A stretch of 64,000 bases of DNA from Candidatus Poribacteria bacterium (GTDB lineage Bacteria; Poribacteria; WGA-4E; WGA-3G). Of this stretch, positions 51,281 to 64,000 are shown in pieces. The position numbers were made by a program, and so were the translations under genes. How positions within the stretch are numbered: position 1 is the first letter of the stretch; every line of letters begins with the position of its first letter. The stretch lies in contig JAJDTM010000062.1 in assembly GCA_022827185.1 (NCBI GenBank), positions 124,001 to 188,000 on the forward strand, read 5' to 3'. Under the pieces are notes generated by a model, which was given only the letters and a program-made list of their open reading frames with translations, searched no databases and was not told the origin of the DNA.

Positions 51281-51598
51281 TCACAGAGTAGAAACCTTGG
51301 ACAAGCTGACTACCTTCTTCGGAGTCACTTCACGCACTAATGCCGCCAGATTAATTGATACGGTTTCCCATAGCCCACCAGCATAATCGGGGTTGTTTGT
51401 ATGAAATGTAATATCCTTAGGATTAGGAATTGGTTCGCTATCAAGCAGCAAACCTTCAAGGTAACACTCAACCGCTTCCGCAGCTTGCATCAGGGTTTCC
51501 TCAATGGTATTTCCGGCACTGAAACACCCAGGCAAATCCGGAACCGTAACCCCGTAACAACTCTCTGGATCTTTGTGGATAACAATAGGATAGCGCAT
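51281..51598 (-). CDS. hicB: HicB-like antitoxin
   Basis: 105 residues. RYPIVIHKDPESCYGVTVPDLPGCFSAGNTIEETLMQAAEAV is the partially degraded RNase H fold of HicB. The C-terminal part is short, and a DNA-binding domain is not evident. The antitoxin precedes the toxin, the less common order. ATG 51598. Confidence 0.82.
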   Translation of the reverse strand: MRYPIVIHKDPESCYGVTVPDLPGCFSAGNTIEETLMQAAEAVECYLEGLLLDSEPIPNPKDITFHTNNPDYAGGLWETVSINLAALVREVTPKKVVSLSKVSTL

Positions 51599-52001: not shown

Positions 52002-52030
52002 TTGCAAAAAATGTTGCAATGTGATATAAT
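52002..52030 (+). promoter_or_regulatory. Predicted promoter of the riboswitch operon
   Basis: TTGCAA (52002-52007) and TATAAT (52025-52030) with a 17-base spacer, 25-30 bases before the aptamer. Confidence 0.8.
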
Positions 52031-52054
52031 ATACGCATTACAATAGAATAACTA

Positions 52055-52232
52055 ACGGTTCAGGTGCCGGAGAGAGCCGGAGAATAGGGAAGTGCGGTGA
52101 GAATCCGCCACGGCCCCGCCACTGTGAACGATCACAAATACCCGTTGAAAAACCACTGTCAATTTACTGATGGGAAGGTTCAGCGGACGCAAGATCGGAA
52201 GTCAGGAGACCTGCCTGGATCGTGTTTCACGC
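52055..52232 (+). ncRNA. Cobalamin riboswitch aptamer
   Basis: The class hallmarks occur in order: GGTGCCGG...GGGAAG near 52063-52092, GTGAGAATCCGCCACGGCCC near 52097-52116, the CCGCCACTGTGA segment, and the B12 box AAGTCAGGAGACCTGCC near 52199-52215. Coordinates of the outer stem are approximate. Binding of adenosyl- or another cobalamin normally lowers expression of downstream uptake or synthesis genes. Confidence 0.93.
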
Positions 52233-52364
52233 ATCTGCTTTCGCGGGAAAGCGGTGGAACAGCGCACAGCAGTATCCTGTTAGAATCAGTATAGAAGTAC
52301 CGATTAAAGTATCATGGCTTCGGATTTAATTGCAGGATCAGCATTATACGAAGTGTCGCCTTAT

Positions 52365-52400
52365 CCCCTGTCTTTTCGAGAGAGCAGGGGTTTTTTGTTT
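52365..52400 (+). terminator. Riboswitch expression platform terminator
   Basis: CCCCTG and CAGGGG with an extended TCTTT/AGAGA stem and one bulge, then TTTTTTG. It lies between the aptamer and the ribosome binding site GGAGG of the first gene, so repression is probably by transcription termination. Confidence 0.85.
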
Positions 52401-52416
52401 CATTACGGAGGTTTTA

Positions 52417-53742
52417 ATGAACAGATTTTTTTTCTTGCGGCGACATTTTTCGTGCTATTTACCCCTACTTATAGTTCCAATTCTTTTTATATTTCTCGTC
52501 AGTCCAGCCTTTGGACAAACAGAGGTTCAAGACCTTGCGGTTGTCATAAACGCGCTGACGCATCCCGACTTGGAGATCACCGCTTCACTCTCACTCATTG
52601 ATCTAATGGAACCGAATGAAAAACGGGCTGTTGACAATGAGATACTCCATTTTAGCAACCAAGTGCTTCAGCGGAAGCGGGCAGTTGGCCTCGCTATTCG
52701 AGGACATCTCGCTTATATTCCGACTTTTAACTTACCTGTTACAGGTGCCGCAAGTAACGGCGATAATATTTTTATTGTCAATTTGGAAGATCGGGAGGTT
52801 GTTGGCGAGATTCCGATTCAGGAAGGTGCGACCCCTCAGCAGATCGTTTTTATTAATGATGAGAAGTTGTACGTTACGTGTGCAGCGGCACATGAGGTGC
52901 ATGTCGTTGACATTCCGAATCGTAGTGTAACGAAGGTCCTGACGGGTGCTTTCAACAAACCGACAGGTATCACGCTACTCAACGGCAAAGCCTACGTCTC
53001 GAATCCTGCATGGGAGTGGGATCCAGAGGCACGGATGACTACCTATTATGAGAGCCGTGTCACAGTCATTGATACAGCGACGGACATCGTGCTGAAATCC
53101 ATTCCGGTACCTACAAATGCAGGCGCAATCCTCAACGATGGTGAATCCACTATCATTGTCAAAACAGTTGGTAATTACAATGATGTTTTGGGACATCTCG
53201 TTCTGATTGACGCGAATACCGATGAGATTGTGGAAACGGTTAAACTCAAATTGACACCTGGTGCCTCTGCCCTCAACGCGGAAAAACGGCTGTTTATCCA
53301 AGGCAGTTGGCAAAAACCGGGCTTGCTCATCTACGATGTCGCGACGAAGGATTGGATCCGCGACGCAGATGACACGATTACCAATTTCAGCAACGATGCA
53401 GATGCATCTATTAGTGGTGGCTTGACTTTTGCACCGGACGGAAAACTCTATATCACCCAACCCGACTGGGGAGGTGGTGGACAGGATTACGTTCGCGTTA
53501 TGGATGTCATGGATGCCTCACTTTTGCAGACCTATCACGTTGGTCCGGGTGCTTCTATTCTGGCATTTGCACAGATTATCTCGCGCCGCGAAGATGTAAA
53601 CAACGACGGGATTGTCAATATCTCGGATCTGGTAATCGCGGTTCAGTTCTTGGGGGATCAGGGACCCGGAATCATCGCCGATGTCAATGGCGACGAAGTG
53701 GTCAATATCCTTGATCTGGTGCTGATAGGACAAGCACTTTAA
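52417..53742 (+). CDS. Secreted YVTN-type beta-propeller protein with C-terminal dockerin
   Basis: 441 residues. Signal peptide or anchor 11-33 (ends SPAFGQ). Residues about 92-388 contain propeller strands of the YVTN type (NIFIVNLEDREVVGEIPI, KLYVTCAAAHEVHVVDI, RVTVIDTATDIVLKSIPV, GLLIYDVATKDWI, GKLYITQPDW). Residues 391-441 are a dockerin with two calcium loops (DVNNDGIVNISDLVI, DVNGDEVVNILDLVL). It is the first gene after the cobalamin riboswitch. In Bacteroides the B12-capturing surface protein BtuG is also a propeller, so a role in binding corrinoids is plausible but inferred. ATG 52417 with GGAGG; an earlier in-frame ATG at 52330 overlaps the terminator and is rejected. Confidence 0.85.
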   Translation: MNRFFFLRRHFSCYLPLLIVPILFIFLVSPAFGQTEVQDLAVVINALTHPDLEITASLSLIDLMEPNEKRAVDNEILHFSNQVLQRKRAVGLAIRGHLAYIPTFNLPVTGAASNGDNIFIVNLEDREVVGEIPIQEGATPQQIVFINDEKLYVTCAAAHEVHVVDIPNRSVTKVLTGAFNKPTGITLLNGKAYVSNPAWEWDPEARMTTYYESRVTVIDTATDIVLKSIPVPTNAGAILNDGESTIIVKTVGNYNDVLGHLVLIDANTDEIVETVKLKLTPGASALNAEKRLFIQGSWQKPGLLIYDVATKDWIRDADDTITNFSNDADASISGGLTFAPDGKLYITQPDWGGGGQDYVRVMDVMDASLLQTYHVGPGASILAFAQIISRREDVNNDGIVNISDLVIAVQFLGDQGPGIIADVNGDEVVNILDLVLIGQAL

Positions 53743-53753
53743 CCAATATTCGC

Positions 53754-53777
53754 GGGCGCGGTTTAGAACCGCGTCCC
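53754..53777. repeat. GGGCGCGGTT imperfect palindrome
   Basis: Lies in the 112-base gap between the first and second riboswitch-linked genes. It resembles 44698-44719 and lacks a T-run, so it is not an obvious terminator. Confidence 0.5.
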
Positions 53778-53854
53778 GTATTCACTCATAAAATTTGTAA
53801 CCTTTCACCTCAGAAAACGCGCAACGGCAAAGGTGTTCTCAAAGGAAATCATAC

Positions 53855-55858
53855 ATGACGCATTTCCTGAATCGAACTACAGTAGGATGGGCACAGTTTC
53901 CGGGTAGGTACAGTTTGCAACCGCACCTACCGCAGGGTCATAAGGGATTCTGGTGTCTGCCACTGCTCGTTTTCCTAATCAGTTGTGCTTCAACCCCCAA
54001 AAAAGAACCGTTTTCATGGAAAGTGACCTTCTTTTCGTTGGGGGCAAGGGTGCAGTTCAGTGCAGAAGCACCCATACAGCGTCTGAATGCCTTTAATGCA
54101 GACGGCGTGAGGGTCGCACAACTTAACTTTCCTACACCACCCCGGCGGACAGAGCCACTCTATTTTGAATGGGATGCGGGAGAGACCTATAGATTTGAAG
54201 CGGTATTGTCAACAGGAAGCGTTGATATGCAAAGGGTAACCGCGCCGCGCGTATACACACAAGGCAATTTAGAGATTGCTATTCCGTACGGTGCTGCGAT
54301 GCAATCAGATCCGGAAAATGGGTCGAGCAGCAATCAGAAAGCACTCGTTTTGCACGAAAGCGAAATGACAGCCACAGTTCTTGTTACAAATGGGAATGTA
54401 CCGACAACCTTTGATCTCAAAATCTGTTTGCCTCGGACGTTAACTATTGTTCGATCGCCAGCAGATTGGGAACATGAAACAACCGACACCGAAACCTGTC
54501 TTTCTACTGCTGGCAGATTTAACATCGCATCAGAAGTTTGGTATCGGGAGTTAGTTTTAAAAACATCCGAGGTGAACCAAACAGGCGATCAAGAAATTTC
54601 CGGGATTGCTCGTTTCAGAACAGATACAGGACAGGTGTGGGAACAACAGACAACGGTGCAGCTGCAGATAGCAACTGTTCCAGAGATCGCCGAACACCTC
54701 TCCATCGTATCGATCGAGATGCCTACAGATGCGACAGGTACAGTGGACTCCAGGCAGCGAGAAGATACGATCCACCACGCACGTCCGTTATTCAGTTGGC
54801 TCGGAACACTACAGACGAATGCGTTCGAGCCGATGACCTACCAGACAATACGGCTACGCAATACGGGTGAAGAGACCATCCATGTGGTCGTCTCGTCTGT
54901 CAACACGGATATGAAGAGTGGTGCAACTGTTCCGTTTCTCGCCCCTCCAGAAACAGCGAACGGCGGGACAAATCGGAGCATAGCGTTCGCGAGTCTACCG
55001 GCAGGCGTGGTTACAGAAATTCCGCTACCTATCTATTTTCACCCCGTGTATATAAGACAAGGCGAGCCAGAACAGGCGATCCCTGGGGAATATATGCGTG
55101 ATATTGCGGTGAAAGTCTGGGGAAGTGACGCGACGGTTCTGCGCGAACAACGTCCACTACACTTGGTTGTTCCAAACCAACAAGCACTATTCATTAGTCT
55201 ATTGGCAATTATTAGCAGTAGTATCGGCTTTGCAATCGTCGGGCGATTTCACAAGCGAATTTTTGCGGGCTTCACAACAAAACAGATCATTGTCATCGCG
55301 CTATTCGGTACGACAGTTTTCGTGACGGTGATGGTCCCGTCAACGCTGTTTCTGAACTTAATCAGCGCGCTCCTCGGTCCAATCTCTGTGCTGGTGAGTG
55401 GTTTGATTAATGAGACGCTCTATTACGCCTTGCTAACTGCCTTGTTAATTTATATTAACGGGGATCCGATGCGTTCCAATCGCGCGGACGCGAAGCTGAG
55501 CAATAAAGGGAGTGGTGTAATCTTGCTGGTCTCAGCGGTGCGCTTACTGCTTAGCGGCGTCACGTTCGGACTTTTCACACCGATGGCGATTGTCTATACC
55601 GGCACAAGCGTCTTGCTACTCGAAACAGGATTCCTGTTTGTGCGAGGACGGAGTATATTCGCGTGGGCTGTCGTGCTCGGGATCTGCGATGCCCTTGCTG
55701 TCTATGTCGAACTCCAACTTTCTATGCTGTTTTACCGACTTTTCTATGCCGATTGGTATATTGTGCTTCGGATCCTGATAGAAGGGTTTGTCTATACATT
55801 TATCGGCGTGCTTCTCGGTGCGAGATTAGGTAGAGGTTTATGGCGTGTAGCGGATTAG
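53855..55858 (+). CDS. Lipoprotein ectodomain fused to multi-pass membrane domain, ECF S-component-like
   Basis: 667 residues. The N-terminus has a hydrophobic stretch ending in a lipobox (VFLISC, Cys44). Residues 45-440 form an all-beta-looking ectodomain. From 443 onward about six or seven membrane helices appear (443-463, 478-498, 500-532, 555-575, 577-597, 601-623, 638-658). The segment IALFGTTVFVTVMVPSTLFL then NLISALLGPISVLVSGL resembles YkoE/ThiW-type substrate subunits of ECF transporters. With the upstream cobalamin riboswitch, a corrinoid or precursor transporter subunit is suggested. ECF ATPases and EcfT are not in the window. A palindromic repeat (53903-53931) lies within the N-terminal codons. 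AAAGGAA precedes ATG. Confidence 0.72.
   Translation: MTHFLNRTTVGWAQFPGRYSLQPHLPQGHKGFWCLPLLVFLISCASTPKKEPFSWKVTFFSLGARVQFSAEAPIQRLNAFNADGVRVAQLNFPTPPRRTEPLYFEWDAGETYRFEAVLSTGSVDMQRVTAPRVYTQGNLEIAIPYGAAMQSDPENGSSSNQKALVLHESEMTATVLVTNGNVPTTFDLKICLPRTLTIVRSPADWEHETTDTETCLSTAGRFNIASEVWYRELVLKTSEVNQTGDQEISGIARFRTDTGQVWEQQTTVQLQIATVPEIAEHLSIVSIEMPTDATGTVDSRQREDTIHHARPLFSWLGTLQTNAFEPMTYQTIRLRNTGEETIHVVVSSVNTDMKSGATVPFLAPPETANGGTNRSIAFASLPAGVVTEIPLPIYFHPVYIRQGEPEQAIPGEYMRDIAVKVWGSDATVLREQRPLHLVVPNQQALFISLLAIISSSIGFAIVGRFHKRIFAGFTTKQIIVIALFGTTVFVTVMVPSTLFLNLISALLGPISVLVSGLINETLYYALLTALLIYINGDPMRSNRADAKLSNKGSGVILLVSAVRLLLSGVTFGLFTPMAIVYTGTSVLLLETGFLFVRGRSIFAWAVVLGICDALAVYVELQLSMLFYRLFYADWYIVLRILIEGFVYTFIGVLLGARLGRGLWRVAD
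53903..53931. repeat. GGTAGGT/ACCTACC palindromic repeat within a coding start
   Basis: Seven-base arms around GTTTGCAACCGC. It resembles the intergenic palindromes but lies in codons 17-26 of the gene at 53855. Confidence 0.5.
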
Positions 55859-55948
55859 TTCAGACCGATAGGTATTATCTCCGTAACCACACCGAGCAAC
55901 ATACAATAACTTGCAATCTGCAACAAAGACAACATAAGGAATATAACA

Positions 55949-57655
55949 ATGAAACGAATCCCATTTTTGTGTCTACTTTGTCTGTTCGTCATTTTACCCA
56001 TTAGCATTGCAACAGCCGAGATAAGTGTCAACTGGATCCGGACAGGTGTAGTGCTTGAATTTCCACACAAAGACGATGTGAAGGGTAGTATCAACGTCGC
56101 AACTGTATCTAACGGTACAACACAGGAATTAGCTGAACGTCCCACAGGCACACAACTTGATGCCAATCGCATGCTGCTCCAATTTCCATGGCAACCGAAC
56201 AAAGATTATCAATTTCATTATCGCTTAAATGATATTAAAATAAACGCCACTTCTCCACTTAAGCCGACACCATATCTTATTCAGACGGTTGAGTTAGATG
56301 GATTGTTGTCGCTGATGGAGAACCTGCGTCAGCCTGCGAAACCGACTGCAGTTGCCTTGGGACATCGGAAAGCACCTTCTACCCATAGATTGGCAATCGC
56401 TACGGATAGCGGCCACCTTGCAATTCTCCAAACACTTACAGGCAAAACACTCTGGAGAACTCGGATTTCGGAAGGCTACGTCAGAAGAATGGCGTTCAGT
56501 CCAGATAATTCCCTACTCTATATCGGCGAGCAGGCAGCAGATGGATTCATCTACTGCTATAATTTCGCAGCCTCTGAATCGACACTTCGCTGGAAATATC
56601 GTACCGCCGATGACATCGAAACCTCTACGCCGAGCAATCCGGACAGTGTCTACGCTTGGGTCAGCTACCCCGGTCCAGCGTGTATGCGAACACTATCTGA
56701 CGGGGACCTCTTGGTCGCGGGTGTGCATTCATGGACACAAAACGATACACCCCTTAAGAAATCGCAGCTTTATAGGTTTGACAGTGAAACCGGAAATGTT
56801 ATCTGGAAATGGCCCCGTGACGGGGCAACGCGGAAGATAATCCGCTGGTTTGATGTAAGTGCTGACGGGAAAACCCTTGCACTTGTAATGGATAGTGGAC
56901 ATAATCTACAAGGGAGCACAACCGATGGAAACGGTGTCGGTAATGGAAAACTCGTTGTTCTTAATGCGGAAGACGGAACAGAGAAGTGGCAAGCAGATAT
57001 TGAACCGCTGCGCGAGTATTTCTCACAGGTCACGTTTTGGCGGGGTGTCAGCATGTCACCCGATGGCAAATTCATAAACGTAACAACAGACGATGGACGT
57101 GCATTCATTTTTGATGTAAATACGTCGGAACTGATATGGCAGGAGAATTTGACGACACCACTGGAGGTGAGTGGTATCCCTATCGTCGCAACTTCTGGCA
57201 CGATCGGTGCAACAGATGCGGCGGCACTCTTCGTTACCGGGGACACCTATATCCCGTATCATCTCCGAAAAGGAGCACAAAAGCCATCGGCAGCGCATCC
57301 AAACGCGATGACGCTATTTGCCTATTCGTGGACGGGTGAAAAAACTTGGCAGTGGCAACTTGAGAATATGCCGCAAGGTCTACGTATCGATGCGAAAGAT
57401 CGGTATGCCGCGTTGTCTGTCTCCAAGCGTACGCAGGATCCGAATGAAAGCCTCCACGGCGTATCAATATTTGACCTGACAGCGGAAGGTAGCGGTTTAT
57501 CGAAATACCTGTACACCTATCGAACAGAGGGGCAGCTGCCTTATGATACGCTTGCGATCAGTGCGGATGGCGCGTTCATCGTTGTCGTTGAGGTACCGAT
57601 AGCGATGCCAGATGAAACGGTGCGTGGCAAGAATCGGGTGCATGTGTTGTATTGA
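55949..57655 (+). CDS. Exported PQQ/WD40-like beta-propeller protein
   Basis: 568 residues. Signal peptide 1-23 (ends IATAE). An N-terminal beta domain (24-110: VNWIRTGVVLEFPHKDDVKG, LQFPWQPNKDYQFHYRL) looks like a short relative of the ectodomain in the upstream gene. Then a propeller with PQQ-like blades (LAILQTLTGKTLWRTRI, LYRFDSETGNVIWKWPR, LVVLNAEDGTEKWQADI, AFIFDVNTSELIWQENL). No catalytic residues can be named. It lies 90 bases after the previous gene without an obvious terminator, so cotranscription from the riboswitch is likely. Confidence 0.8.
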   Translation: MKRIPFLCLLCLFVILPISIATAEISVNWIRTGVVLEFPHKDDVKGSINVATVSNGTTQELAERPTGTQLDANRMLLQFPWQPNKDYQFHYRLNDIKINATSPLKPTPYLIQTVELDGLLSLMENLRQPAKPTAVALGHRKAPSTHRLAIATDSGHLAILQTLTGKTLWRTRISEGYVRRMAFSPDNSLLYIGEQAADGFIYCYNFAASESTLRWKYRTADDIETSTPSNPDSVYAWVSYPGPACMRTLSDGDLLVAGVHSWTQNDTPLKKSQLYRFDSETGNVIWKWPRDGATRKIIRWFDVSADGKTLALVMDSGHNLQGSTTDGNGVGNGKLVVLNAEDGTEKWQADIEPLREYFSQVTFWRGVSMSPDGKFINVTTDDGRAFIFDVNTSELIWQENLTTPLEVSGIPIVATSGTIGATDAAALFVTGDTYIPYHLRKGAQKPSAAHPNAMTLFAYSWTGEKTWQWQLENMPQGLRIDAKDRYAALSVSKRTQDPNESLHGVSIFDLTAEGSGLSKYLYTYRTEGQLPYDTLAISADGAFIVVVEVPIAMPDETVRGKNRVHVLY

Positions 57656-58070: not shown

Positions 58071-58310
58071 TTACGCTATTGGCGGCTTATTGTTCCGCTC
58101 AAATAGCGCGTTCAACGCTTCGCTTAGCAGATGTTGGATACTCGTGTCCCTCTCAATGGCGAGCATCTTCAACTGCCGATGTACGTCTTTATTGAAATGC
58201 CCTGAAATCATCTTTTTGCCTCGACGGGATGGCGGTATCGTCGCAGTCGGTTCCGGTGTTGTCCCGACAGCGATCTCACTCTCGCCCGGCAGAATTGCTA
58301 CTGTTTTCAT
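58071..58310 (-). CDS. Ribbon-helix-helix DNA-binding protein
   Basis: 79 residues. The C-terminal RGKKMISGHFNKDVHRQLKM then AIERDTSIQHLLSEALNALF is a ribbon-helix-helix fold like ParG or antitoxin regulators, preceded by a flexible proline/threonine N-terminus. ATG 58310 with GGAGG ten bases upstream is chosen over 58367. An ACATGT-rich palindromic tract lies just upstream, a likely autoregulatory operator. Confidence 0.75.
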   Translation of the reverse strand: MKTVAILPGESEIAVGTTPEPTATIPPSRRGKKMISGHFNKDVHRQLKMLAIERDTSIQHLLSEALNALFERNNKPPIA

Positions 58311-58326
58311 AATGTGTATGCCTCCG

Positions 58327-58361
58327 CACATGTGCACATGCAAACATGTATACATGTGTGC
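58327..58361 (-). promoter_or_regulatory. Candidate RHH operator with ACATGT repeats
   Basis: Overlapping palindromes CACATGTGCACATG and ACATGTATACATGTGTGC place four ACATG/CATGT words in 35 bases, within 17-50 bases upstream of the RHH gene start. Confidence 0.5.
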
Positions 58362-58508
58362 AAGCATAAAACGTTAGGTTTACAGATCGGTTTCAGGTTT
58401 GGGAGATTTAATTTTCGGTTTTTCGGTGGAAGGTTGGGACAACTATGCACACCTCGCTCAATGTGCCTCAAAACAGCACACTAAATTCCTTTAGATGTCC
58501 AGTTTTTC

Positions 58509-60421: not shown

Positions 60422-61678
60422 CTACGAGGGAGTTAGCATTACAGCGATGTCTTCTGGTAGGTTGACATCGGGGATATGTTCAAGATTTACGATGTTTCTG
60501 TTGATAGGATGGAATAGGTTGATGCTGTTTTTTTCTATGATATTCGCAACAGTCAGGTCCAATCTGGCATTTTCCCACTGCTGCAGCCTTGACCATACCA
60601 CGCCGCGATTGTAATAGGCTTCGGCATAATCCGGATTAGATTCAATTGCTTTGTCCATGTCGTTGATGGCAAGTTCCAGTTCACCTTCGGCTAAGTAAAC
60701 AAGACCACGATTGTTATATGCTTCGGCAAAGTTTGGCTTGAGTTCTATTGCTTTGTTGCAGTCTACAATAGCTCGGTCAAATTCGCCTTTGGCATAATAA
60801 GCGTAACCACGACTACCGTACGCGTGAGCAAAGTCTGATTTGAGTTTTATCGCCTTGCTAAAGTTTTTGATAGCAGGCTCAATTCTACCCATTTTGTTGT
60901 AAACTACGCCGCGATTGTTATACGCTACTGCATAATCAGGTTGAAGTTCTATCGCTTTTGTATAGTCTTGGATGGCACATTCAAGTTCACCACTATTTTC
61001 ATAAGCAACGCCACGATTGCAATAGGCTTCGGCAAGCTCCGGATTTAGGTGTATCGCTTTGTTAAAGTCTTTGATAGCGAGGCTCGTTATGCCTTTCCTG
61101 ACATAAGCATTACCGCGATTATTATAGGCGTATGAGAAATTAGGCTGAAATTCTATTGCTTTGCTGGTGTCTTCGAGTGCCTTATCAGCATCGCCTTTAT
61201 CTGTATAAGCAAGAGCACGGTTGTTATATGCCTTGGCAAAATCGGGTCTGAGTTCTATTGCCTTGTTGAAGTCTTGAAGGGCTTGGTCCACTTCATTCAT
61301 CTGATGGTACGTCAAGCCACGACCGTTATAGGCATCGGCGAAATTCGGTTTAATTTCCATCGCCTTACTGAAGTCCTGAAGGGCACGCGCAAAGTCCCCT
61401 TTTTTGCTGTAGGCGATCCCGCGATCGCAATAGGCATCAGCATTATCGGGCCTGAGTTCTATCAGTCTATTATAGTCTTTGATAGCAGATTCAAAATCAC
61501 CTTTGATGCGATAAGCGTAGCCGCGTATACTGTAGATAGGTGCGTAATCGGGTTTCAGTTCAATCGCCTTATTGTATTCTTCAATGGCTTCGTCATATTT
61601 TCTCGCGAACAGCCTCTGGTTACCGCGTCGCGAATGTTTGGAAAAAAGGTTGTCCATGCCGGTTAATTTGTTGTTCAT
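60422..61678 (-). CDS. Tetratricopeptide repeat protein
   Basis: 418 residues with about eleven 34-residue TPR units (for example AYNNRGxxYxxKGDxxxAIxD patterns) from about 15 to 390, and a conserved tail ending LPEDIAVMLTPS. No signal peptide, so probably cytoplasmic. It begins 11 bases after the FRG gene, as a coupled pair. TPR arrays bind other proteins. The gene at 62732 is a paralogue with the same tail. Confidence 0.9.
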   Translation of the reverse strand: MNNKLTGMDNLFSKHSRRGNQRLFARKYDEAIEEYNKAIELKPDYAPIYSIRGYAYRIKGDFESAIKDYNRLIELRPDNADAYCDRGIAYSKKGDFARALQDFSKAMEIKPNFADAYNGRGLTYHQMNEVDQALQDFNKAIELRPDFAKAYNNRALAYTDKGDADKALEDTSKAIEFQPNFSYAYNNRGNAYVRKGITSLAIKDFNKAIHLNPELAEAYCNRGVAYENSGELECAIQDYTKAIELQPDYAVAYNNRGVVYNKMGRIEPAIKNFSKAIKLKSDFAHAYGSRGYAYYAKGEFDRAIVDCNKAIELKPNFAEAYNNRGLVYLAEGELELAINDMDKAIESNPDYAEAYYNRGVVWSRLQQWENARLDLTVANIIEKNSINLFHPINRNIVNLEHIPDVNLPEDIAVMLTPS

Positions 61679-61689
61679 AACAGTGTTCC

Positions 61690-62463
61690 TCAGGAGTCAA
61701 GTGCATCAACTGATAAGTTATAAGGTTGTGTAGCACTATTTCTTTCAAAAAAACCGAGTAAGTCGGAAAACAAGGTCTTTTCCGAGATTCCCATTTTTTC
61801 TAACGCCGTTCTGATATCTGCTTTGTCACCACTACGGATTGTGATTTCTTGTGTAATCATTTCTGTATCTATCTCCGGTAAGCCAAATAGGAACACCGAT
61901 TGCTGCATAATCAGCCGTTGGGTTTCCACTATTTGACTGTCCAGCGTGGGAGACCATAGATACCAATTCTCCTGGTCAATCGGAAAAAATACTGCCAAAT
62001 CCTGCTGAAGCTGCTCAACAGTTGTTATTTCTTCAATTTTCTCACTATCGTTTTCCAGCACAATAACTTTGCCATTTATGTTCTCATCAGTGCAGGCAAA
62101 CCAGAGGGCGACTAATGGAGCAAGGGTAAAATCAATTAAACCTGTAGCAACGCGATTATGTTGTAAATGCGCCATGCACTCTAAAGCGGACAGGTCTCTA
62201 TATGTAGATGGATACCTCAGTTTAATCTCATCGATAATTTCAAGGAGATAGTTCTGGTACAAATCTCGCAACGGATAAGGCAGAAGATCATCTTCCCGTC
62301 CCAAATCCTCGAAACTGCTTACCAAGCGACGATAGGCACTACTGGTTATACGCCATGTCTCGTTTTCCTGACCACGATAGAGGTAACTTTTTTCGGGATC
62401 GGTTATCGCGTCTATTTGATTGATGTAGTCTGCTAAACTGGATATTTCTACGGGTGTGTTCAT
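61690..62463 (-). CDS. FRG domain protein
   Basis: About 257 residues. YLYRGQENETWRITSSAYRR and LECMAHLQHNRVATGLIDFT then LAPLVALWFAC are the FRG domain landmarks. FRG proteins are common in mobile and defence contexts; their activity is not established. ATG 62463 is taken as start; a TTG at 62499 in the same frame would add 12 residues and has AAGGA close upstream. Forms an operon with the TPR gene. Confidence 0.85.
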   Translation of the reverse strand: MNTPVEISSLADYINQIDAITDPEKSYLYRGQENETWRITSSAYRRLVSSFEDLGREDDLLPYPLRDLYQNYLLEIIDEIKLRYPSTYRDLSALECMAHLQHNRVATGLIDFTLAPLVALWFACTDENINGKVIVLENDSEKIEEITTVEQLQQDLAVFFPIDQENWYLWSPTLDSQIVETQRLIMQQSVFLFGLPEIDTEMITQEITIRSGDKADIRTALEKMGISEKTLFSDLLGFFERNSATQPYNLSVDALDS

Positions 62464-62539
62464 GCGATATTTTTTGATTCTCTGTCCCTTCAACCACAAT
62501 CCTTAATCAGATTATACAATTTAGGGATGTGTTTGTCAA

Positions 62540-62731
62540 TTGCTGTTTTATATGAATCGCGGATTATCGCGGACTAAATAGATGACGCGGATTTTAAGAG
62601 TGCCTCTGTTCGTAGTTGCGCAATTCATTGCGCCTTTTTCTGAATCGCGGATTATCACGGATTTCACGGATTGACTCTCTGTAACATCAAATCATCTGCT
62701 AAGCGGGTAGTTTTTTGTTTTACTGCTATGC
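62540..62731. repeat. ATCGCGGATT repeats and duplicated TPR 3' flank
   Basis: Units of GAATCGCGGATTATCGCGG at 62555 and again near 62642, then TCTGTAACATCA and a CTATGCCTACG block. The order matches 60340-60430 behind the other TPR gene, so gene and flank were duplicated together. Confidence 0.65.
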
Positions 62732-64000
62732 CTACGGGGGTGTTAGCATTGCGGTGATGTCTTCCGGCAACTGAATACCGGTTTTTTGTTCAAAGTCTGC
62801 AACGTTTTCGTAATCACTATGGAGTGCAGCAATGAGATCCATTCCCAGGTTTTGGGCTGTGATGAGGTCTGATTTGGCTTTTTCCCATTTCTTCATGTAT
62901 AACCATACCACCGCACGGATGACATAAGCTTCAGCAGGATCGGGACTGAGTTGTATCATCTTGGTACAGCCTTCAATGGCATTGTCAAAATCGCCTTTAG
63001 TATAGTAAATAGCACTTCGATTGTAATAAGCTATGACATCATTCGGTTTGAGTTGTATCACTTTGGTATAGTCTTCAATAGCACTATCAAAATCGCCCTT
63101 TTCCCTATAAACATTGCCCCGATCGCGATACGCCTTGACATAATCAGAATCAAGTTTTATGGCTTTGGTATAGTCTTCAATAGCAAGATCAATCTCACCT
63201 TTTTCCTCGTAAACAGTGCCTCGATTGTAATAAGCGTTGGAATAATCAGAGTCAAGTTTTATCGCAGTGTTGTAGTCTTTTATAGCATTATCAACATCGC
63301 CTTTGTCAGCGTAAGCAGTACCTCGATTGTTGTATGCCGTGCTATAATTAGGATCAAGTTTTATCGCAGCGTTATAGTCTCTAATAGCATTATCAACATC
63401 GCCTTTATCCCTATAAGCATTGCCTCGATTGCTGTATGCCTGGGCATCATTAGGCTTAAGTTGTATCGCGGTGTCATAATCTCTGATAGCCTTATCAAAT
63501 TTACCTACGTTAGCATAAACATTGCCCCGATTGTTATAGGTACTTGCATCACAAGGGGCCAGTTTCATAGATTTGTTCAAATCTTGAAGGGCCTTGTCAA
63601 TCTCACCTTTTTGGAGATAGGCTGTTCCTCGGTTGCTGTGGGCTGTGGCATTATCAGGGTTAAGTTGTATCGCTTTGCTATAGTCTTTAATAGCTTTGTC
63701 AATTTCACTTTTTTGGAGATAGGCTGTTCCTCGGTTGCTGTGGGCTGTGGCGTTATTAGGGTTGAGCTGTATCGCTTTGCTCAAATCCATAATAGCTTTG
63801 TCAAACTTGTCAAGACCTATATAAGCAGCACCCCGGTTACTATAGGCTACAGCATCTTTTGGACTGAGTTCAATTGTCCGGGAGTATGCCTTTAATGCCT
63901 CGTCTATTTGACCCAAAATCATCATAAAATTACCCCGGTGGAATGCTAAAAAAGCGAGTGTTTCTATTTCCTCGGGTGTTACATTAGGTGAAGGTTTTGC
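62732..64000 (-). CDS. Tetratricopeptide repeat protein, 5' end beyond the window
   Basis: The frame is open through the right edge (AKPSPNVTPEEIETLAFLAF ahead of the first internal Met at 63925), so at least 422 residues with about eleven TPR units and the tail QLPEDITAMLTPP. Units near the N-terminus are almost identical (NATAHSNRGTAYLQK twice), showing recent duplication. Paralogue of the gene at 60422; an FRG gene may precede it outside the window. Confidence 0.88.
   Translation of the reverse strand, partial: AKPSPNVTPEEIETLAFLAFHRGNFMMILGQIDEALKAYSRTIELSPKDAVAYSNRGAAYIGLDKFDKAIMDLSKAIQLNPNNATAHSNRGTAYLQKSEIDKAIKDYSKAIQLNPDNATAHSNRGTAYLQKGEIDKALQDLNKSMKLAPCDASTYNNRGNVYANVGKFDKAIRDYDTAIQLKPNDAQAYSNRGNAYRDKGDVDNAIRDYNAAIKLDPNYSTAYNNRGTAYADKGDVDNAIKDYNTAIKLDSDYSNAYYNRGTVYEEKGEIDLAIEDYTKAIKLDSDYVKAYRDRGNVYREKGDFDSAIEDYTKVIQLKPNDVIAYYNRSAIYYTKGDFDNAIEGCTKMIQLSPDPAEAYVIRAVVWLYMKKWEKAKSDLITAQNLGMDLIAALHSDYENVADFEQKTGIQLPEDITAMLTPP

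Follow-up and report, generated by a model that had tools for sequence, protein, structure and literature searches.

What is made under a cobalamin (vitamin B12) riboswitch when the genes behind it encode two exported propellers and, between them, a lipoprotein fused to a membrane domain? The question is raised by a stretch of 64,000 nucleotides from a Candidatus Poribacteria bacterium (assembly GCA_022827185.1, contig JAJDTM010000062.1, positions 124,001 to 188,000 of the forward strand), here called the window. The initial annotation, made from the letters alone, had described a promoter, a cobalamin riboswitch and an intrinsic terminator followed by three same-strand exported proteins, and Rfam, Pfam and the comparison of loci confirmed all of these elements. 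The three proteins lie 3' of the terminator and are called, in that order, P1, P2 and P3 (Table 1). P1 is a propeller similar to BtuG, P2 is a lipoprotein whose membrane domain resembles an S component of the energy-coupling factor (ECF) transporters, and P3 is a second propeller. With a probability of about 0.68, the operon is a B12-repressed corrinoid acquisition system of one Poribacteria order.

The first line of evidence is the control region. The aptamer scores 111.6 bits (E 5.7e-28) with the Rfam cobalamin model RF00174, well above the cut-off of 31.5, and it is the only copy in the 6.1 Mb source genome (G000). The promoter ends 14 bases 5' of the aptamer. Each of the 17 loci read has a -35/-10 pair with 17-nt spacing 5' of its riboswitch, and the promoter of one clade among them matches the consensus at 12 of 12 positions. 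Between aptamer and gene, 19 of 23 loci have a stem and T-run equivalent to the terminator of the window, where shuffling predicts 0.45. The + strand shows no terminator-like site between P1 and P2 or between P2 and P3. With ample B12 the riboswitch would fold and transcription would halt at the terminator, whereas a shortage of B12 would allow expression of the operon.

The second line of evidence is conservation, which was followed through a phylum set of 85 Poribacteria genomes. P2 was found in 70 and P3 in 72 of these, all within the order of the source genome. Counted over the 72 genomes of the order that carry P1 or P2, the riboswitch lies directly 5' of P1 in 70, at a distance of 136-435 nt from the P1 match (median 212), so the relatives have kept it; in one of the two remaining genomes a contig end truncates P1, and in the other the riboswitch lies on a different contig. 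P1 adjoins P2 in 67 of the 72. It could be argued that P1 and P3 are generic dockerin and propeller surface proteins that came under the riboswitch by chance, with P2 or none of the three concerned with B12, and dockerins and propellers are indeed common in these genomes. However, the P1-P2-P3 order and the riboswitch have stayed together in some 70 species, including lineages in which protein identity falls to about 38-50%, and the riboswitches found in these genomes sit nowhere else, bar one on a short contig. A chance association is therefore very improbable. In G016 the operon is split into a riboswitch followed by P1 and a cohesin gene (L079) and a separate riboswitch followed by P2 and P3 (L078). 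Because each half retains a riboswitch, this locus argues strongly that both halves are B12 genes.

A search of 84,980 species genomes returned 61 relatives of the P2 membrane domain, all 61 labelled Poribacteria; P2 was not found outside the phylum in this search, whose reach is limited by its peptide patterns. Several loci of relatives are rearranged. Transposase-like genes separate the riboswitch-P1-cohesin part from P2-P3 in G022 (L085:10819-14667) and stand near P2 in G020 (L084:1534-3210). The G024 locus (L074:2234-9255) holds the riboswitch, a P1 without dockerin and then a leucine-rich-repeat protein of 1753 residues that has both a dockerin and a FlgD tail. P2 was not found, and the P3 of G024 stands alone on another contig.

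P1, whose start is most likely the ATG preceded by GGAGG, had been proposed to capture corrinoids. Compared as a single sequence with the PDB, it found the BtuG chains 8ptf, 8ptd and 8blw as its best matches (E 4e-5 to 2e-4). A 19-member P1 profile matched 8ptd, 8ptf and 8blw at E of about 1e-21 and other BtuG chains at about 1e-16, and the BtuG chains ranked behind a single entry, 1l0q, which is a generic YVTN surface-layer protein. The entries 8BMX, 8BLW, 8OKV, 8P97 and 8P98 are BtuG or BtuBG structures (PMC10404256), and 8ptd and 8ptf are probably BtuG1, judging from their near-identical alignment to 8blw. The match to PF16819, a propeller family associated with B12 loci (PMC13398666), is weak, with 20.8 bits for P1 and 26.8 for an outgroup homologue against a cut-off of 27.2. 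Taken as sequence evidence, these comparisons support a putative BtuG-like role of P1.

The operons of families outside the order point in the same direction. In G001, G002, G005 and G012 the riboswitch operon contains a TonB receptor and then a lipoprotein propeller homologous to P1 (loci L069, L070, L072 and L073), and in G005 two further genes stand 5' of the receptor. By homology, receptor and propeller are a predicted BtuB-BtuG-like pair. The outgroup operons suggest how the layout may have changed: the propeller would have given up its lipid anchor and the TonB receptor beside it, and gained a dockerin and an S component of the ECF type in exchange. At another locus (G004:C51, L071:210-5675), a cobalamin riboswitch stands 5' of an anaerobic NrdD reductase gene with a LAGLIDADG-type intein; the genes that follow encode a radical S-adenosylmethionine (SAM) activase-like protein and a P1 homologue, a propeller that is lipoprotein-like.

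The C-terminal dockerin of P1 matches PF00404 with 29.9 bits against a cut-off of 22.9 (E 6.4e-7). Anchoring of the propeller at the surface by cohesin-dockerin pairing had also been proposed, and it gains support from the cohesin gene that directly follows dockerin-bearing P1 on its 3' side in four relatives (G016, G018, G020 and G022). FlgD/type IX-like sorting tails end two of these cohesin proteins and the P1 of G016, which suggests surface display. The proposal does not extend to the whole order, since P1 has no dockerin in families f2 and f4; dockerin anchoring thus varies and is not essential.

No sequence match to P2 passed the cut-off in Pfam, NCBIfam or the PDB, and fold models were therefore required. 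The lipobox pattern is present in 24 of 27 P2 orthologues. The ectodomain that follows, of about 390 residues, was modelled with a predicted local distance difference test score (pLDDT) of 83.5 and matches integrin and other immunoglobulin (Ig)-like arrays with a template modelling (TM) score of about 0.2, which is low because its domain arrangement differs from theirs. A known B12-binding fold, such as DUF4465/BtuJ, was absent among the structure matches listed, and the modelled ectodomain reads as an arm. The membrane domain (pLDDT 82.2) has about seven helices, an extra first helix followed by a helical bundle. Using Foldseek against the PDB, the top match was 5EDL, the S component YkoE, with a probability of 1.00 and 17% identity; all other matches listed had a probability of 0.30 or less. 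The modelled bundle resembles the six-helix S-component fold, with 5EDL as the only credible match. The likeness to ECF S subunits that the initial annotation had noticed holds at the level of the fold, but sequence similarity to the B12 S components CbrT and BtuM is not detectable.

An S-component fold can be put to other uses, as it is in the 5TMR receptors and MreD (PMC11109136), and P2 might be a membrane anchor or sensor that displays its Ig-like arm and is no transporter subunit. The large ectodomain would suit such a role, as would the encoding of EcfT and EcfA elsewhere in the genome. However, the AxxxA motif, which docks S components on EcfT, is lost in 5TMR receptors and MreD (PMC11109136), whereas P2 keeps small residues at the equivalent positions of helix 1 in 27 of 27 members (A, S or T at 49, T or A at 53), a relaxed form rather than a strict AxxxA. 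P2 has no cytoplasmic signalling domain, and its membrane helices contain invariant charged and polar residues. The content of the genomes also speaks for a transporter subunit. EcfT (G000:C12) and an EcfA-EcfA' fusion (G000:C1) each occur once in the source genome, and nearly every P2-bearing genome of the order likewise has a single EcfT and EcfA-EcfA'. BioY is absent throughout the order and no PF12822 S component was found above cut-off in the source genome, so P2 is the sole S-component candidate found with the two S families tested. On this evidence an anchor or sensor role is rather unlikely.

The same inventory bears on whether P2 works with this module at all. P2 could transport corrinoid independently of any ECF module, as has been suggested for the solitary S component BtuM, and EcfT and EcfA would then serve another S component. 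The module genes are unlinked to the operon, and the P2 helix at 168-193 contains Cys178-Asp179 (membrane-domain numbering), which is invariant; BtuM is reported to bind cobalt through a cysteine (PMC6072759). Set against this are the single module that accompanies P2 almost throughout the order and the lack of BioY and PF12822 competitors just described, and solitary transport by P2 is improbable. In the source genome the EcfA-EcfA' fusion stands directly 3' of a B12-binding radical SAM (DUF4070) gene (L114:3886-7476). EcfA, EcfT and a radical SAM gene of this type are clustered in G014 and apparently also in G023 and G029; L099, L095 and L098 are loci of such clusters in relatives.

None of the genomes of the order has CbiC, the corrin-synthesis gene tested, which implies that they have lost the ability to build the corrin ring; judged by CbiC alone, Poribacteria of this order appear to be B12 auxotrophs. 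A BtuCDF route was considered and rejected, since the sole strong FecCD (BtuC-type) permease of the source genome accompanies HmuY in a haem-type operon. This operon (G000:C46, L112:4751-11646) comprises a TonB-dependent receptor, HmuY-like proteins, a periplasmic binding protein, the FecCD permease and an ATPase. Complete P1-P2-P3 relatives such as G080, G082, G083, G084 and G023 have no strong FecCD match. With these findings added to those on the riboswitch, P1 and P2, a corrinoid importer is the best reading of the P1-P2-P3 operon.

Several observations weigh against this reading. The 5EDL match is weak (E 0.015, TM 0.49-0.56), and a profile of the P2 membrane domain found zero sequence matches in the PDB up to E 10. 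YkoE is a thiamine-type S component and not of the B12 type, and the one Pfam family touched, ABC_cobalt (PF09819), was matched by only one of 27 P2 members, weakly (E 0.0023). The lack of linkage between the EcfT and EcfA genes and the operon counts here too. On the side of P1, YVTN propellers form a large superfamily, and the proposed capture of corrinoids has the BtuG similarity and the outgroup operons in its favour, but P1 of the order lacks the lipobox that BtuG and the outgroup homologues have, and no outer-membrane or TonB receptor was found beside it in the window operon. The YkoE-like fold and the ABC_cobalt match would fit an operon that imports a non-corrinoid needed more when B12 is short, for example cobalt or a thiamine-like vitamin, and B12 riboswitches control cobalt transporters too. 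The cobalt version is weakened because, with CbiC absent from the order, cobalt for corrin synthesis would be pointless. The BtuG-like character of P1 and the position of its outgroup homologues, next to a TonB receptor behind the same riboswitch, argue against both versions, and import of such a non-corrinoid is unlikely.

P3 adjoins P2 in the relatives read, and its conservation across the order is at least that of P1 and of the P2 arm. A shared N-terminal domain of P2 and P3 was considered and rejected, as the match covers just 34 columns at 14% probability. In G020 a tandem duplicate of P3 lies 3' of P2 (L084:5484-9418).

For the corrinoid importer, the following route can be proposed. P1 would bind corrinoids outside the inner membrane and in most members would be held to a cohesin scaffold through its dockerin. 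An unlinked TonB-dependent receptor would probably carry the corrinoid through the outer membrane; TonB receptors are present in every genome, with 3-20 Plug domains per genome of the order. P3 is probably a periplasmic partner and may act as carrier or release partner. P2, held by its lipid anchor and with its Ig-like arm in the periplasm, would receive the corrinoid as S component and dock on the single EcfT/EcfA-EcfA' module for ATP-driven import. The direct hand-over from P1 to P2 that had been proposed at first is unlikely because the outer membrane with its TonB receptors intervenes; with P1 at the surface, a receptor would be needed between the two, and the operon has none. We see an even chance that the operon represents an undescribed B12 importer of the Gram-negative type, in which an S component with a lipid-anchored arm collects corrinoid from propellers and the BtuF-BtuCD route is absent. 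If this is true, toppling of the S component must happen with a large tethered ectodomain.

Table 1. Features of the riboswitch operon, in positions of the window.
Feature	Position	Strand	Basis or remark
Sigma-70-like promoter, TTGCAA-17-TATAAT, extended -10 (TG)	52002..52030	+	Spacing conserved in loci read
Cobalamin riboswitch aptamer RF00174	52045..52232	+	Rfam, complete model 1-189 of 189
Intrinsic terminator of the expression platform, CCCCTGT...GCAGGGG-TTTTTT	52365..52396	+	
P1, exported BtuG-like YVTN beta-propeller with C-terminal dockerin	52417..53742	+	Signal peptide, Pfam, PDB comparison
Type I dockerin of P1, residues 392-440	53590..53736	+	PF00404
P2, lipoprotein with Ig-like arm fused to ECF S-component-like membrane domain	53855..55858	+	
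P2 lipobox LISC, Cys44	53975..53986	+	
P2 ectodomain, array of Ig/fibronectin type III (FnIII)-like beta-sandwiches	53990..55174	+	Predicted structure
P2 membrane domain, one extra helix and YkoE-like S-component fold	55154..55855	+	
P3, exported pyrroloquinoline quinone (PQQ)/BamB-like propeller	55949..57655	+	PF13360, E 1.2e-11

Around the operon, a small divergent protein gene lies just on its 5' side (51281-51598, - strand); we take its product to resemble a HicB-type antitoxin. Further 3', on the - strand, two long tetratricopeptide-repeat (TPR) proteins are encoded on either side of a smaller gene (61690-62499), and this group at 60422-64000 is possibly a signalling or defence cluster. 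A match to mir-297 at 58302-58370 scores below its Rfam threshold and was set aside as chance.

The single parts of the operon are of known kinds and their combination appears to be new: as the initial annotation had supposed, the openly accessible papers searched describe no such layout and, in particular, no S component that carries a lipid-anchored Ig-like arm. Capture propellers of the BtuG type and ECF transport, which are not known to be combined elsewhere, come together in the operon, and the fusion of an S component with a lipid-anchored arm would offer a natural test of the ECF toppling model. Poribacteria are uncultured sponge symbionts and, by CbiC, B12 auxotrophs, and their way of obtaining B12 bears on the exchange between sponge and microbes.

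Among known systems, BtuB-BtuG of Bacteroides (PMC10404256, PMC6143338) shares with the operon a cobalamin riboswitch and a YVTN-type propeller, and the poribacterial outgroups also share the lipoprotein propeller directly beside a TonB receptor. The operon of the order differs in that it has no TonB receptor, in that P1 is no lipoprotein and in most cases has a dockerin at its C-terminal end, and in that an inner-membrane subunit and a second propeller are present. P1 has in common with the cohesin-dockerin scaffolds its type I dockerin and, in the four relatives, the cohesin gene that follows; here the dockerin is carried by a putative vitamin-capture protein and not by a glycoside hydrolase. 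BtuM is likewise a predicted B12 S component with a conserved cysteine in its membrane domain, but it has no detectable sequence similarity to P2, has no arm and functions without an ECF module of its own (PMC6072759). YkoE (5EDL), the fold match, has about 200 residues and no ectodomain. ECF-CbrT of Lactobacillus (PMC5997447) provides the parallel of an S component that shares one ECF module in B12 auxotrophs without BtuCDF. P2 departs from CbrT in its lipid anchor, its long Ig-like arm and the additional helix at the start of its membrane domain; in fold it matches YkoE, it has no sequence match to solved S components, and it belongs to an envelope of the Gram-negative type. Taken together, the P1-P2 system would combine capture in the manner of BtuG with import in the manner of ECF-CbrT.

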